Source of the DNA: Bryobacteraceae bacterium
GTDB taxonomy: Bacteria; Acidobacteriota; Terriglobia; Bryobacterales; Bryobacteraceae
Direction: 5' to 3'
NCBI GenBank assembly: GCA_025980665.1
Contig: JAICXC010000002.1
Location: 26,057 to 90,056, forward strand
DNA length: 64,000 nucleotides
Shown: positions 3,720 through 22,076 of the stretch, piece by piece
How positions within the stretch are numbered: position 1 is the stretch's first letter
Layout: every line of letters starts with the position of its first letter
Notes under the pieces: generated by a model
The model's database searches: none
What the model was told of the DNA's origin: nothing
What the model saw: only the letters and a program-made list of their open reading frames with translations
Position numbers and translations under genes: made by a program

Positions 3720-6158
3720 ATGGCAAAAAACCTCGTCATCGTCGAATCACCGGCGAAGGCGAAAACCATCGGCAAGTATCTGGGCAAGGATTTCCTGGTC
3801 AAGGCCTCCCTGGGCCACGTCAAGGACCTGCCCAAGAAGAACCTGTCGGTGGATGTGGACAACGACTTCACGCCAGTCTACGAAGTCATTGAAGGCAAGA
3901 AGAAGCTGATCGCGGAGCTCAAGACGGCGGCCAAGAGCAGTGACAACATCTATCTGGCCGCTGACCCTGACCGCGAAGGGGAGGCCATCTGCTATCACCT
4001 CCAGGAAGAGCTCAAGGACAGCAAGAACGGCAAGAAGAGTCCCAAGATTTTCCGGGTGATGTTTAACGAAATCACCAAGAACGCGATTCAGAAGGCGTTC
4101 GAGAAGCCCATGGCTGTGAATCTCCACTTAGTGGACGCGCAGCAGGCCCGGCGCGTACTCGACCGCATTGTGGGCTACAAGATTTCTCCGCTTCTGTGGG
4201 ATAAGGTTCGCCGGGGTCTCTCCGCGGGCCGCGTCCAGACCGTCGCCTTGCGCCTCATCGTGGATCGGGAGCGCGAGATCAAGGCGTTCCAAACCAGGGA
4301 ATACTGGAGCATCGACGTCAACCTCGCCGCTAAGAAGCCGCCGCAGCTCACGGCGCATCTGGCCAAGAAGAATGACGAAAATGTAGAGATTGCGAATGAA
4401 GCCTCGGCTAAGGCGATCGTTTCGGCGGTAGACGGAGTCGACTACATTGTCCGCTCGGTTGTTAATAAGGAAAAGCGCCGCAATCCGGTGCCGCCGTTCA
4501 TCACCTCGACCATCCAGCAGGAAGCCGCGCGGAAACTTCGTTTCAGCGTAAAGCGCACCATGATGCTGGCGCAGAAGCTGTATGAAGGCGTAGAGCTGAG
4601 TAAAGAGGAAGGCGCCACGGGTCTGATCACCTACATGCGTACTGACTCGGTCCGCGTGTCGAACGATGCCGTGGACGAAGTCCGCGCCATGATTACCGAC
4701 CGCTGGGGCGCTGAGTATCGCCCCGCGGCGCCGAATGTTTACAAGGGCAAGAAAGATGCGCAGGATGCCCACGAGGCCATCCGTCCTACTTCGGCGATGC
4801 GCAGCCCGGAGAGCGTCGAGAAATTCCTGGCCGAAGACGAGATGAAACTGTACCGGCTGATCTGGATGCGCTTCGTGGCCTCGCAAATGACGCCCGCGGT
4901 GTTCGATCAGACCACCATCGATGTCGACGCCAAAGGCAAGGACGGCGCGGCGTACTTGTTCCGCGCCACCGGCAGCGTCCCCAAATTTGACGGTTTCCTC
5001 AAGGTTTATCAGGAAGGCAAGGACGAAAAAGACGAGGAAGATGACGAGCTTAAGAATAAACTACCCGCCGTCACCGCGGGCGAGGTCTTAAAGTTCAAAG
5101 CGATCCTGCCCGAGCAGCATTTCACCGAACCGCCTCCGCGTTTCACGGAAGCGACGCTGGTCAAAGAGCTCGAAGCCAAGGGCGTGGGACGCCCGTCGAC
5201 GTACGCGTCGATCTTATCCACCATCCAGGAGCGCGAATACGTCCGCAAGGACGGCGGCAAGTTCACGCCCACCGAGCTCGGCATGGTGGTGACGGATCTG
5301 CTGCTTGAAAGCTTCGACGATCTGTTCGATGTCACCTACACGGCTCGCATGGAAGGCGAGCTGGACGATATCGAAGAAGGCAAGCTCGACTGGCGTGTGG
5401 CCATGAGCGAGTTCTACGAGCGGTTTCAGAAAGACCTGAAACACGCCGAGCGCCACATGACCGATATCAAGCGCATGGAGGAGCCCACCGACCAGATTTG
5501 CGAGAAGTGCGGCAAACCCATGGTCATCAAGTGGGGCCGCCACGGCAAGTTTATCGCCTGCACGGGCTATCCGGAATGCACCAACACGCGCGAGATCGCG
5601 CAGGAAGGCGTGACGGAGCAGGACGAGGCAGAATACTGCGACAACTGCGGTCGTCCCCTGGTACTCAAGAAGGGCCGCTTCGGACAATTTCTGGCGTGCT
5701 CGGGCTATCCCGATTGCAAGACCACCAAGCAGCTCGGCGCGGGTCAAAAACCGCAGGATGTTCCCCTGGACGAATCCTGCCCGCAGTGCGGGAACAAACT
5801 GGTCAAGAAGTTCGGCCGCTTCGGTGAGTTCGTCGCCTGCAGCAACTACCCCACCTGCAAATACGTCAAGCAGAAAACTATTGGAGTGAAGTGTCCCAAT
5901 TGCTCGGAAGGTGAAATCATCGAGCGGCGCTCCAAGCGCGGCAAGACTTTCTACGGCTGCAACCGATATCCCGAGTGCGATTTCGTGGCCTGGGGCAAAC
6001 CGCTTCCCGAGAAATGCCCGGAGTGCGGCGGCAGCTACCTGATCGAGAAATTCCTGAAGTCCGGTGCCTTCGCCCAGTGCCCCAACGGCGAGTGCAAGTT
6101 CAAGAAGCCCCTGCCTCCCCAGGCTCCTGTCGAGACACCCGTGGAGGTGCAGGCGTAG
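3720..6158 (+). CDS. topA: DNA topoisomerase I with five C-terminal C4 zinc ribbons
   Basis: MAKNLVIVESPAKAKTIGKYLG start, TOPRIM DPDREGEAI, active-site region GLITYMRTDS, five CxxC...C zinc-ribbon units. Confidence 0.97.
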   Translation: MAKNLVIVESPAKAKTIGKYLGKDFLVKASLGHVKDLPKKNLSVDVDNDFTPVYEVIEGKKKLIAELKTAAKSSDNIYLAADPDREGEAICYHLQEELKDSKNGKKSPKIFRVMFNEITKNAIQKAFEKPMAVNLHLVDAQQARRVLDRIVGYKISPLLWDKVRRGLSAGRVQTVALRLIVDREREIKAFQTREYWSIDVNLAAKKPPQLTAHLAKKNDENVEIANEASAKAIVSAVDGVDYIVRSVVNKEKRRNPVPPFITSTIQQEAARKLRFSVKRTMMLAQKLYEGVELSKEEGATGLITYMRTDSVRVSNDAVDEVRAMITDRWGAEYRPAAPNVYKGKKDAQDAHEAIRPTSAMRSPESVEKFLAEDEMKLYRLIWMRFVASQMTPAVFDQTTIDVDAKGKDGAAYLFRATGSVPKFDGFLKVYQEGKDEKDEEDDELKNKLPAVTAGEVLKFKAILPEQHFTEPPPRFTEATLVKELEAKGVGRPSTYASILSTIQEREYVRKDGGKFTPTELGMVVTDLLLESFDDLFDVTYTARMEGELDDIEEGKLDWRVAMSEFYERFQKDLKHAERHMTDIKRMEEPTDQICEKCGKPMVIKWGRHGKFIACTGYPECTNTREIAQEGVTEQDEAEYCDNCGRPLVLKKGRFGQFLACSGYPDCKTTKQLGAGQKPQDVPLDESCPQCGNKLVKKFGRFGEFVACSNYPTCKYVKQKTIGVKCPNCSEGEIIERRSKRGKTFYGCNRYPECDFVAWGKPLPEKCPECGGSYLIEKFLKSGAFAQCPNGECKFKKPLPPQAPVETPVEVQA

Positions 6159-6908
6159 GTGGCGGCTGCGGCGGCAACGGCGAACGGATCTCCCGATTAC
6201 GGCTTAGACGCTCCGCGCGTTGTCCGCAGCATGTTCAGCCGGGCTGCGTGGATCATCGCGATCGCTCTGGTGCTGTACGTCGTGAATCATTCCGAGTATC
6301 CCGGACCAGCCGCACGCATGTGCGGCGTACTAGCGCTGATCGGCCTGATTTTCTTGGGCATCGGGGCTGTAATGGTGTGGTCTAGCCGGGTTGCGAAACT
6401 GCGGCTGCGCGATCAGTTGCTCGATTCGCTGGCGCTGCGCGGCGACGAGCGCGTGTTGGACGTGGGCTGCGGGCGCGGTTTGCTGGCGATCGGTGCGGCC
6501 AAGCGGCTGAAGAACGGCAAAGTCATCGGCATCGACGTGTGGAACCCCTTCGATCTTTCCGGCAATACTCCCGACGCCGCGAAAGCCAACGTCAAGTTGG
6601 AAGGCGTCGCCGACAAGGTCCGTATCGAGAATGGCGACGCGCAGAAACTGGTGTATCCGGACAACCATTACGACGTGGTGGTCTCTAGCCTGGCTCTTCA
6701 TAACATTCCGGAGCATCCCGCTCGATCCCAGGCGGTTCGCGAAATGCTTCGCGTGCTGAAGCCGGGTGGGAAGCTTGCTATATTCGACCTTTTCCGCACC
6801 GGCGAGTACGCGGACGTGCTGCGAGCTTTGGGCGCGAACGACATCGAGCTTTCGAAGACCCGATTTCTCTGGTGCGTGCCAGGCCGGGTCCTGACCGCGC
6901 GGAAGTGA
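6159..6908 (+). CDS. class I SAM-dependent methyltransferase with N-terminal membrane segments
   Basis: VLDVGCGRGLLAIGAAKRL, VSSLALHNIPEH, MLRVLKPGGKLAIFD; GTG start directly abutting the topA stop. Confidence 0.85.
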   Translation: MAAAAATANGSPDYGLDAPRVVRSMFSRAAWIIAIALVLYVVNHSEYPGPAARMCGVLALIGLIFLGIGAVMVWSSRVAKLRLRDQLLDSLALRGDERVLDVGCGRGLLAIGAAKRLKNGKVIGIDVWNPFDLSGNTPDAAKANVKLEGVADKVRIENGDAQKLVYPDNHYDVVVSSLALHNIPEHPARSQAVREMLRVLKPGGKLAIFDLFRTGEYADVLRALGANDIELSKTRFLWCVPGRVLTARK

Positions 6909-6918
6909 CTCTTTCCTT

Positions 6919-7515
6919 TTGGACATTGTCGGCATTACCAAAGTCCTGACGTCGGCAGACGTCGAATCCGGCTACCGCGCCGGGATCTTTTCGATGGCCG
7001 ACCCACAGGGCGGCGTCATCACATGGCACCGGCCGAAGCGCCGCGCCATTCTTCCACTGGACACGTTTCATATCTCGCGGTCGCTAAGCACGTTGCTGCG
7101 GCGGCGCCCGTTCAAGGTCACCTTTGACCGCGCGTTCTCCGATGTCGTGGATGCCTGTGCAGACCGCCCCAGTACATGGATCAGCACTGAGTTCAAAAAG
7201 ATTTACGGCGAGCTGCACGCTCAAGACAAAGCGCACTCGGTCGAGGTTTGGGTGGACGGCGAACTGGCGGGCGGACTTTACGGAGTTCATCTGGGCGGCG
7301 CGTTTTTCGCCGAATCCATGTTTCACCGGCGCACGAATATGTCCAAGGTTGCGCTGGCGGAACTGGTGTCGCGGCTTCGGGCGCAGGGGTTTGCCCTCCT
7401 AGAAGTCCAGTACCTGACCGAGCACTTGGCGCAGTTTGGCGTGATCGAGATTTCGGACCGGAAGTATCGGGCTCGCCTGAAAGAGGCGCTCCAGTTCTCG
7501 TGCAGCTTTGGATGA
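6919..7515 (+). CDS. aat: leucyl/phenylalanyl-tRNA--protein transferase
   Basis: GYRAGIFSMADPQGGVITWHRPKRRAILPLDTFHISRSL; VEVWVDGELAGGLYGVHLGGAFFAESMFHR; TTG start. Confidence 0.93.
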   Translation: MDIVGITKVLTSADVESGYRAGIFSMADPQGGVITWHRPKRRAILPLDTFHISRSLSTLLRRRPFKVTFDRAFSDVVDACADRPSTWISTEFKKIYGELHAQDKAHSVEVWVDGELAGGLYGVHLGGAFFAESMFHRRTNMSKVALAELVSRLRAQGFALLEVQYLTEHLAQFGVIEISDRKYRARLKEALQFSCSFG

Positions 7516-7537
7516 GCGCATCGGGCGAGGCATGCTG

Positions 7538-7585
7538 TTATTGCCAGGACATCCCTGACACATTATTGCCAGGACATGCCTGACA
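7538..7585. repeat. two tandem 23-bp near-identical repeats (TTATTGCCAGGACATcCCTGACA / TTATTGCCAGGACATgCCTGACA), 25-bp period
   Basis: Direct reading of 7538-7560 and 7563-7585, one mismatch; each copy is an imperfect palindrome. Confidence 0.9.
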
Positions 7586-7640
7586 GGAGCAGGGTACGGA
7601 ATCGTGGTCTCGGGAGCGGTGGGAATGCGGGAATAACAGG

Positions 7641-8594
7641 CTAATTCGGACCCGGCTTGGATCGCCTCCGCACCTCGACATTCTCACCGACAAAAATCGT
7701 TGTCAAATCGTCGGCGTTCTCGATCGGTCCAGAGTAGTTCTTTCGGGCCCCTTCAATCGCTCCCCGGCCTAAGGCGTGCGCGTACACGGCGAGCCGCGGC
7801 TTAGTGCGGCTGAACACGACCCCGGTTTCCGCTGCGCTCGTGTGATGACTAATGATGTTTTCCGCCTGTTCGCGGGTCGTCCCGCCCGCCATCAAGGCTT
7901 GCACTGTTAGGGTGCTGACCTCGTGAATCAACACATCGACGCCAGTCGCGTATTTGATCAGGTTTTCCGAGAATCTGGTGTCACCGGAGATGGCGACCGA
8001 ATGGCCTCCTGCGTCGACCCGATAACCGAATGCTGGTTGCACTGGCCCATGATCGACCAGAAATGCCGTCACCTTCACGCCGTTGTGCTCGTAAACAACC
8101 CCCTGCTGAATGTCGGTGGCCGAAACCATGATTCCCTCTTTCGAGAACTTTTCATCCACGTCGCGCCGCATGTGGATATCGAAATCGAAAGCTTTGAGCA
8201 TGTTGTCCATCATTTCTTTGGTGCCGGATGGACCCCAGACCCGGAGCGGCGTCTTGCGCCCGCTGGTCCAGCCAGTCAGGAGGATATCCGGCACCGACAG
8301 AATGTGATCCGAGTGCAGGTGAGTAAGAAAAATCTTATCGATCTGCTGCTGCCGAACACCGGCTTCGGCCAGCCGGATGACGGCGGCTCGTCCGCAGTCG
8401 AACAACAACTTCTCCCCGTCAGCCTCAACCAGGATGGATGGACCATATCTTTGGGTGTCGGCGGGTGGACCTCCTCCCGAGCCCAGAACCACAATTTTCA
8501 AGGCGGCGTCTGGCGCCGATGGCGGTGATGTTTGTCCGGCAACGGGAAAAGAAATGACAAGCAGGACCAATAACGCGCCAATGTGTTCCTTCAT
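7641..8594 (-). CDS. secreted MBL-fold metallo-hydrolase (RNase Z/arylsulfatase-like)
   Basis: Signal peptide plus FLTHLHSDHILSVPDILLTGW, AISGDTRFSENLIKY, SHHTSAAETG. Confidence 0.85.
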   Translation of the reverse strand: MKEHIGALLVLLVISFPVAGQTSPPSAPDAALKIVVLGSGGGPPADTQRYGPSILVEADGEKLLFDCGRAAVIRLAEAGVRQQQIDKIFLTHLHSDHILSVPDILLTGWTSGRKTPLRVWGPSGTKEMMDNMLKAFDFDIHMRRDVDEKFSKEGIMVSATDIQQGVVYEHNGVKVTAFLVDHGPVQPAFGYRVDAGGHSVAISGDTRFSENLIKYATGVDVLIHEVSTLTVQALMAGGTTREQAENIISHHTSAAETGVVFSRTKPRLAVYAHALGRGAIEGARKNYSGPIENADDLTTIFVGENVEVRRRSKPGPN

Positions 8595-8778
8595 GATGTT
8601 GGATCAGTATAGCGAAGCTTAGCCCAGTTTCTTTGGGGCAGCTGGCAGTTCCTCGATCCACACGCGGCGGTAGCTGGAGTCCCCCAGCCGACGAGAAGCG
8701 CCAGCCAGGCAATCGAGCAGCGACAAGCTGAGAAAACCTTCCAAGCGCTCTCCTCATTAGTTCGCTGGGAAACGCTCT

Positions 8779-9096
8779 CTACGACGCCAACAGGTTTTGT
8801 AGGGGTCGGGCAGGCCCGACCCGCCAACGATTAGCCGTGCTGCCTTCCAGCATGCACCGCCGCAGCCCTTCACGACCTTCCACCCGCACGGAACCCCTGC
8901 GCGGCGACACGCGATACCCCGTCCTCGCCCCCCGGTCGAGCATCAGGGAATCGAGCGGCCAGTCCGAATCGGCGCATAGCTGGATTCCGCCGTCACGGCT
9001 GATCAAGACCGTCATTTCCTGGCAGCTTTCCCCCCGCTCGAGCGCGGCCAGGGCGGCATCCATCAGACTCTGGGCTTGTTCGGCGAACCGCTGCAC
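8779..9096 (-). CDS. small conserved hypothetical protein
   Basis: 105-aa ORF, AEQAQSLMDAALAALERGESCQEMTVLISRDGGIQL. Confidence 0.5.
   Translation of the reverse strand: MQRFAEQAQSLMDAALAALERGESCQEMTVLISRDGGIQLCADSDWPLDSLMLDRGARTGYRVSPRRGSVRVEGREGLRRCMLEGSTANRWRVGPARPLQNLLAS
8803..8822. repeat. perfect 9-bp hairpin, 2-nt loop (GGGTCGGGC-AG-GCCCGACCC), REP-like
   Basis: Direct reading. Confidence 0.75.
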
Positions 9097-9207
9097 CCAC
9101 TACTTATCGCGATCCCGGACCGACGTTTCACTGTATTTGAGAACTAGTACTTTACTCCATCCCCGGTCTAAGGGTGCATGGTATTCTGTTACTTCCGATA
9201 GGCTACA

Positions 9208-10299
9208 GTGCTTTCCCGCAGGATATTTCTGCAAAGCGGGGCGTGTGTGCTCGGCGCGCCCTTCATCAACCGTGGGCGCTTCTCTCTATTTGCCGGGACT
9301 ATAGACGAGTACTCGTCGCTCGCCGTGGATCTGGTGCGCGAATCCACCGTGATCGACATGCTGGGCCTGCTCACCCTGGATTTCAAGAAACTGGACATTT
9401 GGCGAACCCGCCCCGCCAGTTTCCGTCTGGCGGATTTCCAGCGCCTCAAGGATTCCGGCATCACCGTCTTCCATCCCGCGGTTGGCTACGTTGAGGGAAA
9501 CATCTATGCCCAATCGACGGCGGATATCACTGGTTGGGATGCCTTCATCGATGCGCATCCGGAATACTTCATTCGTGTGTGCGGTCCCGCCGACGTTCCC
9601 CGCGCCAAGGCCGAAGGGAAACTCGGGATCATCGTCGGTGAGCAGAATTCGAATCACTTTCGGACCGTAGATGATGTCGACGCGTTCTACAAACTGGGGC
9701 AGCGGGTGTCTCAGCTCACCTATCGCGACAATGCTTTAGGGGGCGGTTCCACCGACCCCGCGGAGCAGGGCCTGACCGAGTACGGCGAGCAGGTCGTGGC
9801 GCGGATGAACCGGCTGGGCATGGCGGTCGATATCTCGCACTGCGGCGACCGCACCACGCTCGATGTGATCGAGACTTCCACGAAGCCGGTTCTCATCACG
9901 CATTCGAATTGCCGGGCGCTCATGCCCCATAGCGCCCGCTGCAAGACGGACGAAGCGATTCGCAAGCTAGCGGCCAAGGGCGGTGTGGTGGGCGTTACCA
10001 TGGAGCGATTATTCGTGGGGACCGGACGAACGGTAACTATCGAGAATGTCCTCGATCACGTGGATCACGTGGCGAAAGTCGCCGGTGTGGAGCATGTCGG
10101 CCTGGGGAGTGACGTCGACTTGGACGGCCGCGATGGCGCGCTTGCGTCTAAGAAGAACGATCTGGACGGCCTCCAGTACGCGCGTAAAGTCTTCGAACTG
10201 GCCGAAGGATTGGTCCGTAGGAAGTACTCGAATACCGATATCCAACTCATCCTGGGAAGCAATTTCCAACGAGCACTGACGGACATCTGGCAAGGCTGA
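9208..10299 (+). CDS. membrane dipeptidase (peptidase M19)
   Basis: VIDMLGLLT, QLTYRDNALGGGSTDPAEQGLTEYGEQVVARMNRLGMAVDISHCG, VGLGSDVDLDG. Confidence 0.9.
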   Translation: MLSRRIFLQSGACVLGAPFINRGRFSLFAGTIDEYSSLAVDLVRESTVIDMLGLLTLDFKKLDIWRTRPASFRLADFQRLKDSGITVFHPAVGYVEGNIYAQSTADITGWDAFIDAHPEYFIRVCGPADVPRAKAEGKLGIIVGEQNSNHFRTVDDVDAFYKLGQRVSQLTYRDNALGGGSTDPAEQGLTEYGEQVVARMNRLGMAVDISHCGDRTTLDVIETSTKPVLITHSNCRALMPHSARCKTDEAIRKLAAKGGVVGVTMERLFVGTGRTVTIENVLDHVDHVAKVAGVEHVGLGSDVDLDGRDGALASKKNDLDGLQYARKVFELAEGLVRRKYSNTDIQLILGSNFQRALTDIWQG

Positions 10300-10355
10300 A
10301 TGAGTCAGCCTCATTCAAAGATGGTGTGATAGAATCGCGGGCGAGGTCCCACTCC

Positions 10356-11342
10356 ATGAAGAGCTTCGGTATTTGCCTGGTTTTAGCGCTCCCCCTAGCC
10401 GCCGGCTCGGTTCGCGTCATCCAGACCAACGCTGCGGGTGACACCGCGCTGTTCATCGATCCCGCCACCAATAAAGTCGTCCTCACGGTGAAGGATCTGG
10501 AGGCCCCCCACGGAGTTACCTCCTCGCCCGATGGCACCCGCGCGTATTTCACGGTGGAATCCGACAGCACCGTAGTCGCGGTCGACACTAGGACCGGCAA
10601 GCATATCGGCAAGGTGGCTTTGAGCGGACATCCGAACAACATCGCCGTGTCCAAGGATGGGAAGCTGATTTTCGCTGGTATCGCCGTAGCGCCCGGCGCG
10701 ATAGACGTGATCGATGCCGCCACCATGAAGAACATCAAGAGCATCAAGGTCAAGGGCGCCGTGCATAACGTCTACGTGACGCCGGACGGAAAATGGGTGG
10801 TCTCGGGATCGGTCGGGAGCCGCGTCCTTACTGTGATAGACCTGGCCAAGCTGGAAGTAGCCTGGGATCATACCTTCGATAAAGGCGTACGCTGCATGAC
10901 CTTCGACACGGCGCCCGATGGCTCCGCCGCTCACGTTTACCTGCAGCTTTCCGATGTGCACGGATTTGCCGTCCTGGATCTCAAGACGCATGAAGAAGTT
11001 GCGCGAATCATGCTGCCTAACGAACCCAAGGTCGGCGAAGTTCACAGCGGCGCGCCTTCGCACGGGATCGGAATAACACCCGATAAGAAGACCCTGGCGG
11101 TGGATAGTTCCGTCGCGAATGGCGTATTCTTCTACTCGATGCCGGATCTCAAAGTCATTGGATTTGTACCTACCGGGCCGACGCCGGATTGGTTGACGTT
11201 CACTCCCGACAGCAAGATGGTCTACGTCGCAAATGCTGGGGCTAATAACGTGTCTGCCGTGGACATCCAGGCGCGCAAAGTTGTCGCCGTTATTCCGGTG
11301 GGCGAAGTTCCCAAGCGGAACGCCACCGTAGTGATTCCCTAA
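10356..11342 (+). CDS. secreted YncE-like beta-propeller protein
   Basis: Signal peptide MKSFGICLVLALPLAAG; repeated SPDGTRAYFT / VSKDGKLIFAG / TPDGKWVVSGS / TPDSKMVYVAN blades. Confidence 0.85.
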   Translation: MKSFGICLVLALPLAAGSVRVIQTNAAGDTALFIDPATNKVVLTVKDLEAPHGVTSSPDGTRAYFTVESDSTVVAVDTRTGKHIGKVALSGHPNNIAVSKDGKLIFAGIAVAPGAIDVIDAATMKNIKSIKVKGAVHNVYVTPDGKWVVSGSVGSRVLTVIDLAKLEVAWDHTFDKGVRCMTFDTAPDGSAAHVYLQLSDVHGFAVLDLKTHEEVARIMLPNEPKVGEVHSGAPSHGIGITPDKKTLAVDSSVANGVFFYSMPDLKVIGFVPTGPTPDWLTFTPDSKMVYVANAGANNVSAVDIQARKVVAVIPVGEVPKRNATVVIP

Positions 11343-18324: not shown

Positions 18325-19239
18325 ATGCTACGCGCGATTGACGAAAACACCATTACCGACGCCGCGATTGAGCAGATGGCGGCAACGCCGAATCCGCGGC
18401 TGAAGCAGATCATGGAGCCGTTAGTGAGGCATCTGCACGCCTGGGCACGCGAGGCGGATCTTACTCCCGAAGAATGGCTCGAGGGGATCAAGTTCCTGAC
18501 TGCCGTGGGACAAAAGTGCACCGCGTTCCGGCAGGAGTTCATTTTACTTTCCGATACGCTGGGCATGAGTTCCTTGATCAACTCCCTTCACGATAAACGC
18601 GCAGCGGAGGCCGGCACCAAGAGCAGTCTGGTTGGTCCGTTCTATCGCCAGGATTCTCCGCCGATGAAGCTGGGCGATACCATCGTTACCAAGCCGACCA
18701 ACGGGCTCGAAGTCGTGCTTTACGGACGCGTGACTGACAGGGCAGGGAAGGGCGTTCCGAATGCTTCGATCGAGGTGTGGCAGCCGGATGAAACCGGCAA
18801 CTACGATTTGCAGAAACACGATCCATCTGAGATGGACTTGCGCGGCCATTTCCATACCGATAGCGATGGACGTTACTACCTGCGTACAGTAGCGCCCCTC
18901 GGATACATGATCCCTATGGACGGACCGGTGGGCGACATGATTCGTGCGCAGAAGCGCCATGGCTATCGTCCCGCGCACATTCACTTTATTGTCGGCGCAC
19001 CGGGCTATCGCGAGGTGGTAACGGCGCTCTATCTCGCGGGCGATCCGCACGTCGATTCCGATACCGTGTTTGGCGTGACAGAATCGCTAGTGACGAAGGT
19101 CAACGAGAAAGATCCTGGCTCGCCGATTCCTACTCTGCCCAGCATCAAATTCGACTTCCAGCTCGCCGCGGCAACGGCCAAGGATATGACCGGACGCGTC
19201 GGCGCGGATCCATCGCAGATCGTTAAGGTGGGAGCGTAG
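18325..19239 (+). CDS. intradiol ring-cleavage dioxygenase (hydroxyquinol/catechol 1,2-dioxygenase-like)
   Basis: N-terminal helical domain plus GPFYRQDSPP, ASIEVWQPDETGNYDLQ, LRGHFHTDSDGRYYLRTV, HGYRPAHIHFIV. Confidence 0.9.
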   Translation: MLRAIDENTITDAAIEQMAATPNPRLKQIMEPLVRHLHAWAREADLTPEEWLEGIKFLTAVGQKCTAFRQEFILLSDTLGMSSLINSLHDKRAAEAGTKSSLVGPFYRQDSPPMKLGDTIVTKPTNGLEVVLYGRVTDRAGKGVPNASIEVWQPDETGNYDLQKHDPSEMDLRGHFHTDSDGRYYLRTVAPLGYMIPMDGPVGDMIRAQKRHGYRPAHIHFIVGAPGYREVVTALYLAGDPHVDSDTVFGVTESLVTKVNEKDPGSPIPTLPSIKFDFQLAAATAKDMTGRVGADPSQIVKVGA

Positions 19240-19256: not shown

Positions 19257-20777
19257 GTGAAGTTTGAGGCTCTCTACTACCAAGACCGCCTGAAGATCGT
19301 CAATCCAGAAGGCGACGTCGCCATTACGACGCTCTGGTCGAAAGTAGAATCCGCCTATCAAATCATGGAAGAAGCGGGCGTGGACCTGTCACCCGCAACC
19401 TCGCGCATCGGACCCATTGCCAACTTGTACGGAAATGGTCTTCCGCAGATGTTGCGGAACCTGTTGTGGAACCCGCATATCCGTTACATCGTGATTGTCG
19501 GCAAGAACCTTTCCGGGTCGCGCGAGTGGATCTTGAACTTCTTCGAGCATGGTCTGGAAGAAGTGGAATTTCTGGGCGCGAAGGCGTTTCGCATTCGCAA
19601 TACGACACGCACGATCGATGGCTGCGTACAGCCGCAGAATTTTTTGAATGCTCCTGGCTTTACCGTGCTCGGAGATGTGGGTGACCCGGCGACCAAAGCG
19701 GGATTGAAGTCTTTTTTCGACGGCCTCCCTCCGGCGGAGTCTTGCGATCTTGTGCGCGTTGAACCCCCGCCTATCCCAGAACCTGCGGTGACACGATTTC
19801 CAACCGAGCCGCGCAGCCACACTATCGTGCGCGACACACCAATGGAGGCGTGGTCGGAGATCATCTTCCGTTTGTTCCGCTTCGGCCATCGCAACATGGT
19901 GGCGAAGAAGAGCGGGCCCGAAGGCCGCGTCGAGCTGCAAAACATCAAGGCTATTATCGAGAACCCGTGCGAAGGGCCGGATGAAATTCTCCAGCAGTAT
20001 GGGTTCAGTCTCGCGAAGTTCCAGGGCTATCAGCAGCGCATCCTGGATCCGGAGAAGCCGCCGGATCTTGGCTATACGTATGGCAATCGACTGCGCGCGT
20101 ATTTTCGACGTCCTGATGGGACATTGATCGATTCCCTGGAAATCGCCGCGCGGAGGCTCAGAGAGAAACCCGAATCGCGGCACGCCTACATTGCGCTGTG
20201 GGACAACACTCGCGACCTGCCCGAAGGCACCGATACTCCCTGCTTCGTTTCCGCATTCTTCAGAAAATTCGACGGCAAGCTGACGCTGACTGCTACCTTT
20301 CGATCGCATAACGCCATGGAAGCCTGGCCGGAAAATGTCTACGGGCTGATCGCCATCCAGCGATTTGTCGCGGAGAAGGCCGGCATGGAGCCCGGCCCGC
20401 TCACCGTGTTCAGCCACTCCATCAGCATCGACGTTTCCTCACTCGAAAAAGCCCGCAAGATTGCCGCCAGCAAGGAGTCTGACGAGGTGTACGATCCGGC
20501 CACGGGCAAGCATGGACCGCGCATGGACCCAAACGGTGCCTTCACGACTACGTTTGACGCGGCCACGTGGGAACTGGTGGTCGAACATTCTTACAACGGA
20601 ATGAAGCTCAATGAATATCGCGGCAAAAGTGCGGAAGAAATCGAGCGGCAACTGGGACGGGATGTGGCGCTGTCGGAGATCTCGCACGCTCTGTACTTGG
20701 GGCGGGAAATCGCGCGCAAAGAGTTCGAGATGAAAGCCGCACGTTCCAAAGAAGGTCCACGCGCGAAATCAGAATGA
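19257..20777 (+). CDS. thymidylate synthase-fold protein with N-terminal MtrA-like domain
   Basis: C-terminal half carries TS-like DTPCFVSAFFRKFDGKLTLTATFRSHNAMEAWPENVYGL; N-terminal VAITTLWS...NPHIRYIVIVGKNLSGS resembles the MtrA cobamide-binding subunit. Confidence 0.75.
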   Translation: MKFEALYYQDRLKIVNPEGDVAITTLWSKVESAYQIMEEAGVDLSPATSRIGPIANLYGNGLPQMLRNLLWNPHIRYIVIVGKNLSGSREWILNFFEHGLEEVEFLGAKAFRIRNTTRTIDGCVQPQNFLNAPGFTVLGDVGDPATKAGLKSFFDGLPPAESCDLVRVEPPPIPEPAVTRFPTEPRSHTIVRDTPMEAWSEIIFRLFRFGHRNMVAKKSGPEGRVELQNIKAIIENPCEGPDEILQQYGFSLAKFQGYQQRILDPEKPPDLGYTYGNRLRAYFRRPDGTLIDSLEIAARRLREKPESRHAYIALWDNTRDLPEGTDTPCFVSAFFRKFDGKLTLTATFRSHNAMEAWPENVYGLIAIQRFVAEKAGMEPGPLTVFSHSISIDVSSLEKARKIAASKESDEVYDPATGKHGPRMDPNGAFTTTFDAATWELVVEHSYNGMKLNEYRGKSAEEIERQLGRDVALSEISHALYLGREIARKEFEMKAARSKEGPRAKSE

Positions 20778-21454
20778 TCGTCTTCTTCGACATCGGCTCG
20801 ACTCTGATCGACGGACCGCCGTTTGGCCCGGCGAGACGCCTCTCGGAAACACTTGGCCTCGGACCGGAGGCGGTGAAAGAATTGGAGCGCATCTTATTCC
20901 GTTCGCCCGCGAGCGATCCCCAGCAACTCGCGAATACCGTCGTAAATCGGTTGCGCGTCGATCGCAATAAGGCCTTGGAGGCTTGCACCGCGCTATGGAA
21001 TGCCCAACTTGAGGAAGCTTACGTGCTGCCCGGCGCGCGCGAGCTGATCGAGAAACTCAAATCCGCGGGAATTCCCAGAGCGTATCTTTCGAACATCTGG
21101 CCCCCGTTTTACGAACACTTTCAGCAGGAGTTCGCGGAAGAGGCTGAGAATCAACCGCAGTTTCTCTCCTTCCAGACGGGTCTACTGAAGCCCGATCCCG
21201 CGTTCTTCCAACTGGCCCTGCGCGCGGTGGAAGCTCGCGCGGAAGACGCGGTCATGGTGGGCGACACATACAAGAACGATATCCGCCCGGCGATCGAGCT
21301 GGGCATGCGCACCGTGTGGGTCCTGCATCGCCTCGAAAAAGAGAAGGCCGATTTGATCGACGTGATGAACGGCGACGCCCCGCCGCCCGACCTAACGCTC
21401 GCATCGATCGCCGATCTGGAACCGTCCAAACTACTAAGTCATGCAAATTATTAA
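20774..21454 (+). CDS. HAD-superfamily hydrolase
   Basis: FFDIGSTLIDGP, YLSNIWPPF, GLLKPDPAFFQLAL, VMVGDTYKNDIRPAIELGM; overlaps the upstream gene by 4 bp. Confidence 0.85.
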   Translation: MIVFFDIGSTLIDGPPFGPARRLSETLGLGPEAVKELERILFRSPASDPQQLANTVVNRLRVDRNKALEACTALWNAQLEEAYVLPGARELIEKLKSAGIPRAYLSNIWPPFYEHFQQEFAEEAENQPQFLSFQTGLLKPDPAFFQLALRAVEARAEDAVMVGDTYKNDIRPAIELGMRTVWVLHRLEKEKADLIDVMNGDAPPPDLTLASIADLEPSKLLSHANY

Positions 21455-22076
21455 GTACGACCTTCTGACCGAAGCCGACCTGTTGAGCCGCCTGAAATGC
21501 ACTCGGTTGCGCGGTTTCGACCGCGCCGAAGTCTACCGCGATGCGACGCTCGAAATCCTGGAAGCAGATCCTGCAACGCTCTCGCCGGCACAGCGCTACG
21601 TGCTGCAAGAAGGCGTGCAGGCAATCCTCGAAGTGGCGGACGCGTTCGAGCTTCTAGGTGTCGATATTTTCGGTTTAAGAGGCGCGCTGCTTTTCTGGCC
21701 CGAAGGAAGCGATCCCGAAAGCGATGCGCCCATCCCGTTTCTCCCGCCGGTAATTGAGGAATCGATAGAGCGCGACGGCACGAAGGTCCTGCTGATCAAC
21801 GATGGCATTCATCGCGTGTATGCCGCCCGCAAACGCGGCAAAAAGATCAACGTGGTGCTGGCCCGTAATGTCCCGCCGGAATATCCGTATTACGCGTATG
21901 CGCTGCCGCAAGGTTGGGCTCAGGTGGACGAACTACAGGAACTGCAGGAAGGCTACCAGAAGAAGGAATATCGCAATCCGGAGAATTACAAGGCGCTGTT
22001 CCGCGACTTCAATGAAATCTTTGAAGGCGTACAAAAACAGCGCCCGCGAAGTAATCCCGCCCACTTAAAGGCGTGA
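21441..22076 (+). CDS. ParB/sulfiredoxin-fold-like protein
   Basis: KVLLINDGIHRVYAARKRGKKINVV (DGxHRxxAA-type motif); overlaps the HAD gene by 14 bp. Confidence 0.6.
   Translation: MQIIKYDLLTEADLLSRLKCTRLRGFDRAEVYRDATLEILEADPATLSPAQRYVLQEGVQAILEVADAFELLGVDIFGLRGALLFWPEGSDPESDAPIPFLPPVIEESIERDGTKVLLINDGIHRVYAARKRGKKINVVLARNVPPEYPYYAYALPQGWAQVDELQELQEGYQKKEYRNPENYKALFRDFNEIFEGVQKQRPRSNPAHLKA

Follow-up and report, generated by a model that had tools for sequence, protein, structure and literature searches.

A thymidylate synthase domain fused to MtrA-like and DUF4346 domains as probable replacement of ThyX in some Bryobacterales-like Acidobacteriota

The stretch of DNA analysed here, called the window (64,000 nucleotides), comes from a 5.04-Mb draft genome of 89% completeness, whose named relatives are mainly Bryobacterales and Terriglobia MAGs. 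It contains three consecutive open reading frames (Table 1), of which the first two overlap by 4 bp (20774–20777) and the last two by 14 bp (21441–21454), exactly as described in a first-pass annotation of the same DNA. In those pairs of close copies in which dN/dS could be computed, the values for the three genes were between 0.02 and 0.14. They are thus under strong purifying selection and therefore not chance open reading frames.

Table 1. Genes, domains and motifs of the three-gene cassette (positions are those of the window)
Feature	Position	Strand	Remarks
Gene 1, MtrA-like/thymidylate synthase/PterinBD-DUF4346 fusion	19257–20777	+	506 aa, GTG start
MtrA-like domain, N-terminal, aa 1–190	19257–19826	+	Weak Pfam MtrA match at aa 13–108; phmmer matches to 8q3v and 5laa
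Methanogen-type thymidylate synthase domain, aa 196–391 (TIGR03283)	19842–20430	+	TIGR03283, alignment with ThyA, Foldseek matches to thymidylate synthase structures
PterinBD-DUF4346 domain, aa 423–494	20523–20738	+	Motif HALYLGREIARKE; Pfam, E = 1.6e-13
Gene 2, HAD-superfamily protein	20774–21454	+	226 aa; +2 Asp missing from motif I (DIGST)
Gene 3, Parb-CE domain protein	21441–22076	+	211 aa; DGIHRVYAARK motif; Pfam PF24392

Residues 196–398 of the gene 1 product form, by Pfam and NCBIfam, a thymidylate synthase (TS) domain. The match to Thymidylat_synt (PF00303) has an E value of 6.5e-12 (45.6 bits, above the gathering cut-off of 24.3), and the best family match across the domain is to the methanogen TS TIGR03283 (E = 2.5e-33), although with 115.3 bits the protein stays under the equivalog cut-off of 174.55 bits. 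Like the methanogen-type enzymes it has a short TS core from which the canonical N-terminal half is missing; it differs from them in its two outer domains. The C-terminal one matches PterinBD-DUF4346 (PF14251) in Pfam with 51.6 bits (cut-off 29.6); a PDB search with this part yielded only designed proteins and chance matches. The N-terminal likeness to MtrA (PF04208) is weak (E = 0.0018; 18.4 bits, under the cut-off of 25) and lies in the first 110 residues; phmmer matches two MtrA structures. In the open literature we found no paper on DUF4346 or on MtrA together with TS, in agreement with the initial suggestion that the system is undescribed.

An alignment with E. coli ThyA showed that the fusion protein has kept the equivalents of Cys146, Arg166, Asn177, Arg126 and Tyr94. 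Cys329, Arg349 and Asn360, which correspond to the catalytic Cys, Arg166 and Asn177, are invariant in the aligned members, including a phage homologue (see below). By contrast, the protein is changed at the folate contacts: the equivalents of Trp80 and Trp83 are not kept, and in place of Asp169 there is Asn352 in every fusion examined, that of the phage included, whereas the TIGR03283-like proteins aligned (e.g. those at loci L004 and L037) have retained the Asp. Also Arg127 is exchanged, for His. In ThyA Asp169 contacts the pterin of the folate. According to the title of PDB entry 1bjg, one of the structures matched by the model of the fusion, the D221(169)N mutant fails to promote imidazolidine ring opening in the cofactor, and since the fusion has the same exchange its ordinary chemistry with CH2-THF may be impaired. 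The AlphaFold2 model of the fusion is of moderate confidence (pLDDT 65.7) and matches TS structures in Foldseek (E = 3e-10).

Other Acidobacteriota have MtrA-DUF4346 proteins without TS (NF002128-like; L086, 1488–2606, and L087, 1874–3016), which is why the fusion looks like a TS inserted between two parts of such a protein. Both outer domains are present there in the same order, but in addition these proteins have a Cys-rich N-terminus and the corrinoid-ligand His. The neighbours of the gene at L087 look like molybdenum-cofactor genes. In MtrA His84 ligates cobalt, Glu54 being its partner (PMC4915002). The fusion has Ser88 and Tyr58 in these positions, both invariant across the family, and has lost the GAIPF segment of MtrA. 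In L086 and L087 the His is kept. With the ligand residues exchanged, corrinoid binding in the manner of MtrA would not be expected of the fusion.

Gene 2 matches HAD in Pfam (E = 6.9e-14), and the nucleophile Asp6 as well as Ser106, Lys139 and Asp164 are present. It is thus like HAD subfamily IA (CTE7, DREG-2, YjjG-like) with respect to the nucleophile of motif I and to motifs II, III and IV, but scores under all equivalog cut-offs listed, and its motif I reads DIG instead of DxD, with Gly8 invariant in 8/8 aligned members. As all eight lack the second Asp of motif I, phosphatase activity appears doubtful, which weakens the early reading of the protein as a nucleotide phosphatase. Gene 3 was found to belong to Parb-CE (PF24392; E = 1.4e-32; 113.1 bits, cut-off 23), whereas with ParBc there was no Pfam match at E ≤ 1. 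The MtrA-like N-terminus, the TS fold, the HAD protein and a ParB/Srx-like motif, all named in the first-pass annotation, were found again. A DGxHR motif, as in ParB/Srx-fold proteins, is the sole likeness of gene 3 to small-molecule kinases of the SerK/SbnI type; the sequence has no solved relative, a PDB search with it returned nothing credible and the predicted structure (pLDDT 40) is unusable. Within the phylum Parb-CE is seldom met: of 396 genomes three have it, and two of these also carry the cassette. None was found on phages or plasmids. In genome G626 (L103, 1360–2601) the domain has another setting, behind a membrane and PLD-like region.

The order TS-HAD-Parb-CE is complete at eight loci, seven of them in one genus and one in another, confirming the expectation that the three genes would be neighbours in related genomes; at a ninth locus (G487) TS-HAD is kept and the contig ends inside the HAD gene. 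The flanks of the cassette differ between loci, and there is no obvious biosynthetic cluster. A catechol 1,2-dioxygenase-like gene (18325–19239 in the window) is located directly upstream at four loci and absent near the others. The cassette of genus genome G187 is also found on contig CALQCC020000007.1 (L036), which is titled Bordetella parapertussis and is likely to be a mislabelled MAG. A defence system was rejected, PADLOC giving no match, and so was spread by plasmids, on which there was no full-length match to the fusion. A count of DNA patterns over the loci added nothing.

Profile searches of the source genome revealed a single PF00303 match, which is gene 1, and no ThyX. Of 257 genomes of the order, nine had the fusion: 7 of the 23 of the genus, and G412 and G487 from two other genera. 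Within the genus ThyX is absent from 7/7 genomes with the fusion and present in 16/16 without it (Fisher 4e-6), and among the high-quality genomes of a sample of the order ThyX is absent from 6/6 with the fusion and from 4/124 without it (Fisher 3.5e-8), both values being a guide only, since the genomes of the genus are related and independence is overstated. That no more than 4 of 124 high-quality non-fusion genomes lack ThyX makes incomplete assembly a poor explanation of its absence. ThyX was also not found in G412 and G487, the latter genome being 62% complete. Two genomes with PF00303 proteins that are not fusions (G416 and G425) have kept ThyX, and four high-quality genomes (G404, G442, G317 and G325) have neither ThyX nor a PF00303 match. 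The ThyX of the order (L047–L050, L058–L060, L097–L098) shows two tandem Thy1 matches in one open reading frame of about 480–500 aa or more. Fusion and ThyX (PF02511), which are unrelated in fold and sequence, thus occupy the same genomic niche, with exactly one of the two in each genome of the genus.

A full-length homologue of the fusion is encoded on the 81-kb IMG/VR contig IMGVR_UViG_3300035670_000127 (L082), with 50% identity in the tblastn match and 52% in the alignment. Open reading frames resembling those for capsid, portal and tape-measure proteins, named by reading the sequences without profiles, identify the contig by its gene content as that of a tailed phage. The fusion gene is followed by a 103-aa open reading frame of unknown family, an adenosylcobalamin-dependent ribonucleotide reductase (TIGR02505, E = 4.5e-98, slightly under the cut-off) and a cobalamin adenosyltransferase; this region is a dNTP-synthesis block. 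The nucleotide block (5001–10405) also includes a DNA methylase, and upstream, on the other strand, there is a gene for a DnaN-like clamp. Neither Parb-CE nor ThyX was found in this record, which may be a fragment, and there is no HAD gene beside the TS gene. Viral scans with other alignments led only to the same contig.

Most likely, the fusion represents a thymidylate synthase with a new combination of domains and has displaced ThyX. That it has the predicted activity and serves this bacterium, like a subset of Bryobacterales-like Acidobacteriota, as thymidylate synthase, we regard as probable, with dUMP as substrate, dTMP as product and a pterin as donor, as we infer. Judged from the residues shared with ThyA, Cys329 would attack C6 of dUMP, Asn360 would select uracil and Arg349/Arg308 would bind the phosphate. 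The MtrA-like and DUF4346 domains would make up a module with the probable task of binding or delivering the reduced pterin C1 donor, and this module may substitute for the folate contacts lost from the TS domain. In this respect the early proposal of an unusual C1-transfer protein was borne out. The HAD and Parb-CE proteins would be accessory, being always inherited with the bacterial gene and not found beside the phage homologue. For them we lean towards a regulator that binds nucleotides and a hydrolase whose substrates would be TS by-products or the C1 donor, roles which the evidence does not separate from that of passengers.

Indeed, there is a substantial chance, somewhat short of even, that the HAD and Parb-CE proteins have their function outside thymidylate synthesis, either as passengers or as a regulatory or protective pair travelling with the TS gene. 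The phage record, with its fusion gene unaccompanied by Parb-CE or an adjoining HAD gene, is consistent with this, and so is genome G322, whose TS gene is only 77% like the window copy, as compared to 91% for HAD and 89% for Parb-CE. This difference suggests that in G322 the TS gene may have been replaced alone and could be exchanged separately from the other two. (The gene in question, at L051, 9327–10901, has neighbours 89–96% like those in the window, and upstream of it some 700 bp of DNA have been added.) Mere passengers, however, are not easily reconciled with the finding that HAD and Parb-CE orthologues adjoin the fusion in 7/7 of its genomes in the genus and are absent from the other 16, where there are distant HAD matches only, nor with an order of genes that is the same across three unrelated neighbourhoods.

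Thymidylate synthases of two types have been described, ThyA, which is coupled to FolA, and ThyX, which often occurs without FolA, the absence of FolA being normal for ThyX users (PMC9931769). In the genus a dihydrofolate reductase of the FolA type (PF00186) was detected in none of the 23 genomes, by a search whose control worked. Since the ThyA-type reaction yields dihydrofolate, this absence is unexpected for a ThyA-type enzyme. For the fusion two routes are conceivable, ordinary chemistry together with a reductase other than FolA or a chemistry yielding no dihydrofolate. We lean, not decisively, towards the second because the Asp is changed and domains are added. The first, in which the fusion is an ordinary ThyA-type enzyme converting CH2-THF to dihydrofolate, which is then reduced by a short-chain dehydrogenase of the FolM/PTR1 type or by a RibD/DmrA-like protein, is a sub-case of the same reading and has a fair-sized minority share of the probability: the catalytic Cys and the nucleotide-binding residues are kept, and dihydropterin reductases other than FolA do exist, such as DmrA (PMC6193120); FolM is treated in PMC1971073. 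Against it speak the exchange of Asp169 for Asn, the loss of the Trp80, Trp83 and Arg127 equivalents, and domains that have no counterpart in ThyA. More speculative, and on present evidence rather unlikely, is the reading of the fusion as a working thymidylate synthase of a third type, with the fold of ThyA and no need of dihydrofolate reductase, differing from both ThyA and ThyX in the delivery of hydride or of the C1 unit. In such an enzyme the fused MtrA-like and DUF4346 domains would hold the pterin, and ThyX would become replaceable in cells without FolA.

The first-pass annotation had favoured a modified-nucleotide pathway "rather than plain dTMP synthesis". By this account the product of the cassette would be a pyrimidine with a hydroxymethyl or other substituent at position 5, destined for a secondary pathway, and the cell would have another source of dTMP. 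The CMP hydroxymethylase MilA is among the best structural matches of the model, the Asp169 equivalent is changed and two accessory genes always accompany the fusion. TS-fold enzymes that use cytosine have Asp in the position of Asn177. The fusion has Asn360 there and hence lacks the residue typical of dCMP and CMP hydroxymethylases. Moreover, no other TS was found in any genome with the fusion, which in the source genome is the only one and in the genus perfectly exclusive with ThyX, the flanks are variable, with no sign of a biosynthetic cluster, and the phage copy lies near a ribonucleotide reductase. We therefore consider this pathway unlikely, at roughly the level of an outside chance. 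Transfer of a methyl group to the nucleotide by a corrinoid still bound to the MtrA-like domain, for which the weak MtrA homology and the B12-dependent reductase and adenosyltransferase near the phage copy might speak, was rejected as very improbable, the ligand residues and the GAIPF segment being gone from the fusion though the His is there in L086 and L087, and the reductase sufficing to account for its B12-related neighbour.

The fusion that most likely displaced ThyX is thus a protein of the ThyA fold which, with the key folate Asp changed, is found instead of ThyX in genomes that have no detectable FolA. Unless these organisms possess an unrecognised dihydrofolate reductase, the enzyme must work by a new mechanism. 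For the DUF4346 domain a role in the use of pterins is suggested, and the nucleotide metabolism of phages would gain a further type of thymidylate synthase.
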